From the NCBI RefSeq assembly GCF_017795885.1, contig NZ_CP059297.1, positions 1-64,000 on the forward strand: a DNA stretch of 64,000 bases, read 5' to 3'. Shown here piece after piece: positions 58,665 through 63,121 of the stretch. The stretch comes from Brevundimonas sp. AJA228-03 (lineage in GTDB: Bacteria > Pseudomonadota > Alphaproteobacteria > Caulobacterales > Caulobacteraceae). The stretch's first letter is position 1; each line of letters opens with the position of its first letter. The notes beneath the pieces were generated by a model. The model searched no databases. It was not told the origin of the DNA and saw only the letters and a program-made list of their open reading frames with translations. Made by a program: the position numbers and the translations under genes.

Positions 58665-58751
58665 GGATCGGGCTCCGGTTGTCCCCTTCCCTAACACCCG
58701 GTGCCCCGCCCCGGGAATGGACACCCGCCGCCGCCGGGCCTATCGTCGCCG

Positions 58752-60964
<2,213 letters not shown>

Positions 60965-61030: not shown

Positions 61031-62296
61031 TTGCCTAAGCTTAGCGATGACATCGAAGGAATGCTCGCGACCGCAGCCCTGATGCTGACCGCCGAAGGAA
61101 TGGCTGAATCGGCCGAAATTCTCCGTACGGCTGAACCCGCAATTGAAGAGACCGGATTCGACAACTGGAACGGCGGAACCACGATTTGGACGATTTACCT
61201 TTATGTAGAACCCGAGCGTTTCGTTAAGCTAGGAGACAGGCGAGAGCTGCTCGAAGATCAGATCGACACGCGCTTTAAGTCCATCGTCGGTAGCGACTCC
61301 CGAGATTGGTACGGTGCCAAGATACGTCCGCAGCTTCAGAAATCAGCCAACTGGCGCGAGTCCGCAGCGGAAATTCCTGAGCACACGCGACGTAACATTT
61401 TCGACGGGTTTCGGATCGAGAATGTCGCCTGGGCAGGACGCATAGACGAGGTCGCGTTCTTGGCTCGGATATTCGACTTGGCCAAGCTTCCGTCGACCGA
61501 TTCCCGTTTCGGCGACGCAGCGGGAGATATTTGGCAGCACCGCGTTAACAATCCCGAGGATTGGAGTGACGACTGGATTTACGGCGACGTTCGATTTCGC
61601 CTGCTCAACGGCCCAAGCGATATTTTTATCCGGTTCCTGTGCGAAATGGTTCACCCGGTGGTGCGCCCTGATCGCAACGAAGCACTTCAGCTAGTTCAAC
61701 ACATCAACGACCAGCTTCGACCTGTTGGTTGGACCCTCGCTGAGGAAGAGAAAATCGCGGGTCGCCCCCGCTTCATCGGCAGGAAGCTAAGCGGCCAAGG
61801 ACAACGCCACGTTTCCAGAGCCCGGTCAGTAGCTGACGCTCTCGACGCGGGCTGGATGCAAAAGGAGATCGAACGGCTGGAAAACGCGGTCGATCGCGAC
61901 CCGGCATTAGCGATTGGGACGGCAAAAGAGCTTGTCGAGTCATGCTGCAAGTCGATCCTGACGAAACGGAACATCCCGTATTCGACTGGAGCCACGCTCC
62001 CCGACCTTACCAAGGCATTGGCCAAAGAACTCAAGCTGGTCCCCGAGGGGATTCCCGATCAAGCACGAGGAGCTGAGACCGTCCGGTTGATCCTTCGAAA
62101 TTTGTCGTCGCTGACTTCGTATCTTGCGGAACTGCGGGGCCTCTACGGCACCGGGCATGGCCGAGACGGAAAACACCGCGGCTTGGAGCCGAGGCACGCA
62201 AGGCTGGCCGTAGCTTCAGCCGTCGCCTTCATCGACTTTGCGACGGAAACCCACCAAGCGCGCCAGACAGGAAGCGAAAAGGTGGAGCCCGGGTGA
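61031..62296 (+). CDS. Abortive infection family protein (Abi_C/HEPN-like)
   Basis: A 421-aa protein starting at a TTG with AAGAGGG seven bases before; the first in-frame ATG is at 61061. The C-terminal part (residues about 300-410) fits the Abi_C domain: AIGTAKELVESCCKSILTKR and LRNLSSLTSYLAELRGLYGTGHG. This contains a HEPN RNase-like R369-x6-H376. The N-terminal 280 residues are unrecognised, with conserved-looking Trp/Asp patches. Less GC-rich than neighbouring genes. A phage-defence role is inferred from the domain and island setting. Confidence 0.78.
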   Translation: MPKLSDDIEGMLATAALMLTAEGMAESAEILRTAEPAIEETGFDNWNGGTTIWTIYLYVEPERFVKLGDRRELLEDQIDTRFKSIVGSDSRDWYGAKIRPQLQKSANWRESAAEIPEHTRRNIFDGFRIENVAWAGRIDEVAFLARIFDLAKLPSTDSRFGDAAGDIWQHRVNNPEDWSDDWIYGDVRFRLLNGPSDIFIRFLCEMVHPVVRPDRNEALQLVQHINDQLRPVGWTLAEEEKIAGRPRFIGRKLSGQGQRHVSRARSVADALDAGWMQKEIERLENAVDRDPALAIGTAKELVESCCKSILTKRNIPYSTGATLPDLTKALAKELKLVPEGIPDQARGAETVRLILRNLSSLTSYLAELRGLYGTGHGRDGKHRGLEPRHARLAVASAVAFIDFATETHQARQTGSEKVEPG

Positions 62297-62524: not shown

Positions 62525-63010
62525 ATGACCAAATCATTGCCAAAGAGCGCGGAGTCAGAAGCGCTCCGTCGTAACGAGGCTAAGTGGACCAAGCCGCTGA
62601 TGGAAGCGGGTTGGAACGCAATCCCGAGCATCATCATAGAGAAACAGGAGGCCCTTGGGCTCGATGCCATAGATATGAACATCATTCTGCACCTCTCGAA
62701 CTATTGGTGGCACGCGGATAATCTTCCATGCCCGTCAGTAGAGACGGTTGCGCGTGCGGTCGGCGTCTCAGGCCGGACCGTCCAAAAGCGAGTCAAAGCC
62801 CTGCAGGAACTAGGTCTGCTCACCCGGACCGAAAGGCGCAACACCCGCTTCGGCAGCGACACCAATCTCTACAGCTTCGAGGGACTGATCGCTGCCTCGT
62901 TGCCATTCGCTAAGGAGAAGCTCGCTGATCGAGCGAAGCGCGATCAGGAAGAACGTGACCGTGTCGCCCGGAAGAAGCCAAAGCTGAAACTGGTCGCTGC
63001 AAATACTTGA
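62525..63010 (+). CDS. Helix-turn-helix (winged-helix) DNA-binding protein
   Basis: A 161-aa protein. The middle has a replication-initiator/wHTH-like domain: IDMNIILHLSNYWWHADNLP then PSVETVARAVGVSGRTVQKRVKALQELGLLTRTERRN (residues about 70-105). A basic Arg/Lys-rich C-terminus ends the protein. Members of this type are common on plasmids and integrative elements as replication or transfer regulators. It lies beside the Abi gene and just before a tRNA gene. Confidence 0.78.
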   Translation: MTKSLPKSAESEALRRNEAKWTKPLMEAGWNAIPSIIIEKQEALGLDAIDMNIILHLSNYWWHADNLPCPSVETVARAVGVSGRTVQKRVKALQELGLLTRTERRNTRFGSDTNLYSFEGLIAASLPFAKEKLADRAKRDQEERDRVARKKPKLKLVAANT

Positions 63011-63017
63011 GAATTAT

Positions 63018-63121
63018 GGCGGCGTAGCTCAGCCGGATAGAGCTCTCGTTTTCTACATACTTCATGGTTCGCGCCTCTAGTATGGACGAGAAGGTCGCGG
63101 GTTCAAGTCCCGCCGCCGCCT
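63018..63121 (+). tRNA. tRNA-Arg(TCT)-like gene with a 29-nt anticodon-loop insertion
   Basis: Cloverleaf: acceptor GGCGGCG/CGCCGCC, D-arm GCTC-AGCCGGATA-GAGC, T-arm GCGGG-TTCAAGT-CCCGC, anticodon stem CTCGT (63045-63049)/ACGAG (63086-63090). The loop reads TTTCTA then CATAC (63056-63060), 19 nt, GTATG (63080-63084), G. Removing 63056-63084 leaves TTTCTAG: U33, anticodon TCT, A37. The variable region is 6 nt and position 73 is T, both unusual for tRNA-Arg, so a defective gene is possible. Confidence 0.75.

Follow-up and report, generated by a model that had tools for sequence, protein, structure and literature searches.

A candidate family of tRNA-Arg-like RNAs with a lengthened, hairpin-bearing anticodon arm in proteobacterial plasmids and genomes

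tRNA-like structures that are recognised by aminoacyl-tRNA synthetases are best known from plant RNA viruses. Some of these viral structures keep identity bases of the anticodon type for the synthetase, according to the available text of PMC9976931. The same text ranks A20 first among the determinants for E. coli ArgRS and gives A20, C35, U/G36 and A/G73 as the bacterial arginine identity set; it is internally uneven, one row of its Table 1 reading 'A/G73, U73' and position 36 being given once as U/C36 in the text and as U/G36 in the table. Bacillus cereus tRNA-Other is a pseudo-tRNA within a larger RNA, which its authors regard as acting outside translation and as poorly aminoacylated (PMC3399842, in the part available). 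tRNA look-alikes with non-translation roles on acquired bacterial DNA are few in the literature searched.

Here we describe an element of Brevundimonas sp. AJA228-03, located in a stretch of 64,000 nt that was analysed as a whole (contig NZ_CP059297.1, positions 1 to 64,000; hereafter the window). To judge from sequence comparison, it very probably belongs to a single RNA family with a tRNA body and a lengthened anticodon arm, rather than being an intron-bearing tRNA. No paper describing this family was recognised by title or abstract in the literature searched, which consisted of openly available journal papers.

A tRNA-like element with a structured anticodon arm

The original prediction had placed here a tRNA-Arg(TCT)-like gene with 29 extra nucleotides at position 37/38. 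Such a gene was indeed found by Rfam, whose tRNA model RF00005 matched positions 63018-63121 exactly on the plus strand (52.2 bits against a gathering score of 29; E 2.4e-8), and by ARAGORN, which called a tRNA-Arg(tct) with a 29-nt intron at 37/38 when introns were allowed and no tRNA anywhere in the window when they were not. The size and site of the extra nucleotides were thus confirmed, but the ARAGORN borders lie one base off the predicted 63056-63084. Pairing was perfect in the acceptor (7/7), D (4/4) and T (5/5) stems by eye, as predicted, and the two oddities that had been pointed out, T73 and a 6-nt variable loop, were also seen by eye, T73 differing from the G of the genome's Arg tRNAs. 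Model R1 scored the element at 111.3 bits, the element being part of this model's own training set.

The anticodon stem had been thought to pair across an open 36-nt loop. This was not borne out by the predicted fold (minimum free energy −43.5 kcal/mol; z −2.81; 2 of 200 shuffles equally or more stable), in which a 7-bp anticodon stem is followed by a one-sided bulge and a 6-bp apical stem (63056-63061 with 63079-63084; Table 1). A 7-nt anticodon loop with U33 is therefore not kept, being replaced by bulge and hairpin, and U33 itself is absent in 4 of the 15 aligned members of the family described below. With a hairpin behind position 37, the RNA would be unfit to decode.

Table 1. Coordinates of the element, its parts and the gene in front of it
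Feature	Position	Strand	Basis or remark
Winged-helix (HTH_36, DnaD-N-like) protein gene	62525..63010	+	Stop 7 nt before the RNA
tRNA-Arg-like RNA with extended anticodon arm	63018..63121	+	RF00005, 52.2 bits; row of the 15-row family alignment
D loop AGCCGGATA	63031..63039	+	A20 = 63037; within the genome, A20 in Arg tRNAs only
Lengthened anticodon stem, 5' side	63044..63050	+	Partner 63085-63091; compensatory changes across the family
One-sided 5-nt bulge UUCUA, positions 33-37	63051..63055	+	Predicted fold; family consensus N-N-C-K-A
29-nt 'insert', an apical hairpin with outer stem CATACT/AGTATG	63056..63084	+	Predicted fold; changes on both sides in 3/5 hairpin pairs
T arm	63097..63113	+	T loop TTCAAGT identical across 15 aligned members
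Discriminator T73	63121..63121	+	C/T in 17/18 members; G in the genome's own Arg tRNAs

We considered the possibility that the element is a working tRNA-Arg(UCU) from which a short intron at 37/38 is excised, precise removal being one of the fates that the original prediction had proposed. The site, the plausible anticodon and an arginine reading in 13 of 15 members agree with this. Yet neither the tRNA-splicing endonuclease (PF01974) nor the RtcB ligase (PF01139) was found in the host genome, the control genomes being positive in 4 of 14 and 9 of 14 cases, respectively. A group I core was not found either: the Rfam scan of the window at gathering scores returned the TPP riboswitch and the tRNA only. 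The predicted fold contains no bulge-helix-bulge, as the one-sided 5-nt bulge faces no opposed 3-nt bulge, and the Paraburkholderia member, like those that have lost U33, argues against decoding, having no recognisable anticodon by eye. Finally, the search for other tRNA-Arg(TCT) genes that had been suggested turned up an intact copy at G000:C1:1959758-1959831, a finding that had been named beforehand among the grounds for refutation. AGA decoding thus need not depend on the element. The list from which this copy comes (3.04 Mb genome in one contig; 42 tRNA matches, the other 41 called as ordinary tRNAs) holds no tRNA-Ile(GAT) and no tRNA-Ala(TGC), and is therefore probably incomplete. Taken together, these findings led us to reject a protein-spliced intron as well as a decoding tRNA, and make the working, spliced tRNA very improbable.

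Related loci and covariation

Relatives were found in several ways. A distant blastn of 72,556 plasmid records gave matches spanning the insert in Caulobacter, Xanthobacter, Acidisoma and Methylocaldum and a weaker one in Sinorhizobium pRm1132f, which is listed among rolling-circle plasmids in the available part of PMC10194956. Other members were recovered 3' of homologues of the neighbouring protein (Spongiibacter, Bradyrhizobium, Paraburkholderia), by further blastn (Methylosinus), by pattern searches (G394, G438, G219, Rhodosalinus and the IMG/VR contig L401) and with a covariance model (G677, G632, G193). Eighteen loci were tabulated, namely the window, nine plasmid records, one contig of a viral collection and seven genome contigs, with hosts among the alpha-, beta- and gammaproteobacteria; another Bradyrhizobium plasmid that gave this match is not included in the counts. 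The 15-row alignments leave out Bradyrhizobium (L337), Paraburkholderia (L338) and G219 (L394), all three being within the 18. The contigs L283 and L412, which carry an identical RNA sequence, are in neither set; their RNA scores 76.3 bits with model R2, above L394 (70.2), and has A20, but its bulge reads C35-U36 with U37 by eye, so that its omission favours the A37 count given below.

The element is rare in genomes, being found in 4 of 398 proteobacterial genomes at E ≤ 1e-13 (model R2), the host's own included. The search for the insert in related genomes that had been proposed found it at full length in the host genome only, among 61 genomes (own, same genus, same order).

Comparison of the members gave a common architecture: a stem of about 6-7 bp, a bulge N-N-C-K-A and an apical hairpin, directly behind an open reading frame (ORF) in most loci. 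Compensatory changes occur in the acceptor, anticodon, T and inserted stems. Among 9 rows, 16 of 27 pairs had changed on both sides, compared with 6.5 in shuffles, and among 15 rows (MAFFT) 18 had done so, compared with 9.6; the inserted hairpin contributed 3 of its 5 pairs in both cases, and its cells were paired in 67% of the 15-row MAFFT alignment. A model-fitted alignment, which is biased towards structure, gave 20 pairs and 5/5 for the hairpin. By eye, the single-sequence folds of 9 of the 18 members contain the one-sided 5-nt bulge, and those of the rest differ in detail. In four loci (L084, L337, L342, L392) the apical hairpin has GAAATC facing GAGAGTA or GAAAGTA, which looks like a loop-E (bulged-G) motif by eye.

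This covariation bears on two further fates that had been envisaged for the locus, the scar of a mobile element and a dead tRNA with an accidental insertion. The restriction of the full-length match to one of the 61 genomes would suit a dead tRNA. Its stems are perfect, however, and relatives on plasmids of three proteobacterial classes share its architecture and show compensatory changes in the stems, the inserted one included, which rules against both fates; we therefore rejected the dead tRNA, which is scarcely credible, and dropped the scar.

A phage origin was also considered and rejected. The 50,697 phage records gave partial RNA matches only, as far as the 20 listed of 45 matching records go, and a single distant protein match. 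Scans of viral contigs gave at least one member (L401), at least one near relative (L283/L412) and many other tRNA-like elements, while a strict pattern had no match on the viral contigs; a scan of genome contigs gave, among the matches listed, mostly archaeal ones. Some of the viral elements (IMG/VR contigs L225, L277, L312, L325 and others) have long inserts between the D and T arms. In one recurrent kind the insert contains ACAGCAA; in another, Ile- or Gly-type tRNAs bear a hairpin within their anticodon loop (L259, L311, L405). Other recurrent tRNA-like genes with long inserts were also seen on genome contigs of Flavobacterium (L099, L131, L144) and Lachnospiraceae (L107, L142).

The upstream gene and the edge of acquired DNA

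In the window, the gene order is thiC, an AbiJ-like gene, a winged-helix gene and the RNA, followed by dsbA on the opposite strand. None of thiC, the abortive-infection gene, the winged-helix gene and the tRNA was found at 21 dsbA loci of the same genus (flanks of up to 1.5 kb). When five such loci were compared by eye, two shared the dsbA end of the window and diverged about 10-12 nt past the RNA, which places the RNA near the edge of acquired DNA. The thiC gene (58889-60964) is apparently broken, its ThiC domain being spread over two ORFs (58889-60169 and 60326-60964) with part of the profile in neither; a full TPP riboswitch lies upstream (58749-58857). The abortive-infection gene (AbiJ_NTD3 plus Abi_C; 61031-62296) precedes the winged-helix gene. 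On an Agrobacterium Ti plasmid (L327:1671-2705), a gene of the abortive-infection family likewise stands before a winged-helix homologue, and the RNA is absent.

The winged-helix protein contains HTH_36 (34.3 bits, cut-off 25) and scores just below the cut-off of 27 for DnaD_N (26.1). It matches PHROG replication-initiation families and resembles DnaD-N and phage O-like replication proteins; modest-scoring matches of its structure model (mean pLDDT 76.6) were DnaD and winged helices of the MarR type. The protein was also considered as the replicase of the plasmids; an array of repeated sites was not found in any of 5 regions scanned. At 15 of the 18 loci, the stop codon of an upstream ORF lies at most 12 nt ahead of the RNA or at most 2 nt within it, a count that leaves out a 61-aa ORF called by script before L341 and taken as spurious. 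At these 15 loci the ORF encodes a winged-helix homologue in 12, a weak homologue in G193 (27% identity) and something else in Acidisoma and G219. In the latter, an alphaproteobacterium, the RNA (L394:1494-1600) follows a 376-aa ORF by 6 nt, and a DGQHR motif was seen in this ORF by eye. Among the 14 members that were recovered through the RNA alone, 9 had a winged-helix partner, G193 included, whereas the protein at E ≤ 1e-25 was present in 3 of 367 genomes of the class, own included. A terminator search behind the RNA was positive at 2 of 18 loci, compared with 11 of 360 control windows, which is not a firm difference.

The relatedness of the RNAs follows that of the proteins only weakly. 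The RNA was absent from 26 of the 38 winged-helix loci in the protein tree. RNA presence required 9 changes on this tree, scarcely less than in shuffles (108 of 500 were as low), and RNA identity correlated with protein identity at r 0.06 (12 members), 0.17 (11 members) or 0.32 (10 members, p 0.03). The RNA therefore seems to have been gained, lost or exchanged often beside winged-helix genes. This weak link, the 9 changes and the position at the edge of acquired DNA in the window could also mean that the element works as DNA, as a site of recombination or integration, tRNA-like in form, at which a set of exchangeable genes ends. Against this, the tertiary bases of tRNA, which are single-stranded, are kept together with G-U pairs, and no integrase is constantly linked in the neighbourhoods examined, so that we regard a DNA site as quite improbable.

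Arginine identity bases and a possible role

The unpaired columns kept in at least 13 of 15 rows comprise tRNA tertiary bases, one hairpin base, G38, A20, C35 and A37. All 18 tabulated loci have A20, which a script found in 17 and inspection by eye in one; in one of the 15 alignment rows it is out of register. Of the 41 other tRNAs of the host genome, the four Arg tRNAs carry A20, Arg-CCT as judged by eye and the other three by script, and the remaining 37 lack it. All 15 aligned members have C35 and U/G36, position 36 being T in 9 and G in 6, never C or A. On the RNA tree, position 36 changed 4 times, always between T and G, position 34 5 times and position 33 3 times, while 35 and 37 were invariant. 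This pattern is only suggestive, because the tree is weakly supported, with no starred branch, and because some of the conserved bases were already present in the models and patterns used to collect part of the rows. The anticodons of the 15 rows would read UCU (7), UCG (3), GCG (2), ACG (1) and GCU (2). By eye, the encoded sequence continues with CCA immediately behind position 73 in 11 of 18 members, the window not being among them.

Several observations speak against recognition by ArgRS. Position 73 is C or T in 17 of 18 members and G in one, compared with A/G73 in the text of PMC9976931 as available, and the family thus does not conform to this element of the arginine set. Two of the 15 readings, GCU, correspond to a serine anticodon, and N-N-C-K-A is not clear by eye in Bradyrhizobium (ambiguous) and Paraburkholderia (unreadable). 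A20 also occurs, by script, in 13 of 39 other distinct tRNA-like sequences with inserts, several of the 39 resembling, by eye, archaeal genes of the Arg(UCU) type. From the conserved bases, with position 73 counting against it, we have moderate confidence in arginine mimicry as such; participation of ArgRS is more tentative, somewhat short of an even chance.

The RNA might instead be a stable tRNA-like cap or regulator that makes no use of ArgRS and owes its arginine bases to inheritance from a tRNA-Arg ancestor. As a cap, the tRNA body would provide an RNase P site and a 3'-end shield for the upstream mRNA; as a regulator, its hairpin would bind the winged-helix protein or another target. The fixed site behind an ORF, the variable hairpin, a pyrimidine at 73 and the upstream genes of another type in Acidisoma and, as the DGQHR-type protein, in G219 are all compatible with this. 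The invariance of C35 and A37 and the restriction of position 36 to T or G, whereas 33 and 34 change, are not readily explained in this way, and we consider a cap or regulator somewhat unlikely.

Some nucleases cut tRNA-Arg in the anticodon loop, as illustrated by the targets of colicin D-type toxins. We also considered a decoy or antidote against such nucleases, protecting the carrier or the element itself, for which the Arg-like bases kept in a loop turned into bulge and hairpin, the mobile setting and the abortive-infection gene upstream in the window would be suitable. Yet no nuclease or immunity gene was linked across the member neighbourhoods examined, and a decoy appears distinctly unlikely.

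The explanation that we favour, at close to an even chance, is that plasmid-type mRNAs carry the element at their 3' end as a mimic of tRNA-Arg, which ArgRS recognises but which is unfit to decode. The arginine-recognition bases are kept and a structured arm replaces the codon-reading loop, so that these RNAs probably act outside protein synthesis. Their processing, their binding or charging by ArgRS and their purpose we infer as follows. The RNA would be co-transcribed with the upstream ORF, be cut out by RNase P and tRNA 3'-end enzymes or be left as the 3' end of the mRNA, and fold into an L shape. ArgRS would bind it, and perhaps charge it, via A20, C35 and U/G36. Such an RNA would probably serve to make the stability or the expression of the upstream gene depend on ArgRS or on arginine status, on the model of the 3' tRNA-like structures of plant viruses and of synthetase-binding mimics in mRNAs. 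By analogy, the plasmids might even possess their own class of 3' tRNA-like structures, arginylatable or ArgRS-binding, linking the mRNA of a plasmid gene to the host synthetase, with the decoding-dead lengthened arm as a second binding domain; this extension is doubtful. With its covariation, its nearly fixed site behind an ORF and its conserved arginine bases, such a family would open synthetase-linked control of mobile genes to direct tests in vitro. It also calls for caution, since a plasmid element called as a 'tRNA with intron' may be of another nature.

Among known systems, group I intron-bearing bacterial tRNAs also have extra sequence at 37/38, but theirs contains a catalytic core of about 100 nt, whereas the 29 nt of the element have no such core (PMC4033280, in the part available). 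Allo-tRNAs and other non-canonical tRNAs are natural bacterial RNAs of odd structure and varied anticodons; they differ in the acceptor branch (8/4 or 9/3), unlike the element, which is 7/5 with a changed anticodon arm (PMC7609411, part of the text). The E. coli thrS operator is a synthetase-recognised tRNA mimic in a bacterial mRNA, but is located in the 5' untranslated region of a synthetase gene and, in the available description, has no acceptor arm (PMC9976931). The structures of plant RNA viruses, as covered in that same part, are tRNA mimics located at a message's 3' end or close to it; they have been aminoacylated by experiment and often contain pseudoknots, whereas the present RNAs are full cloverleaves, bacterial and known from their sequence. 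Closest in kind is B. cereus tRNA-Other. It differs by its Trp anticodon, its flanks of about 0.5 kb and its occurrence in Bacilli, and no extended arm is described in the available part of PMC3399842; like the present element, it is a tRNA look-alike on acquired DNA, behind an ORF.
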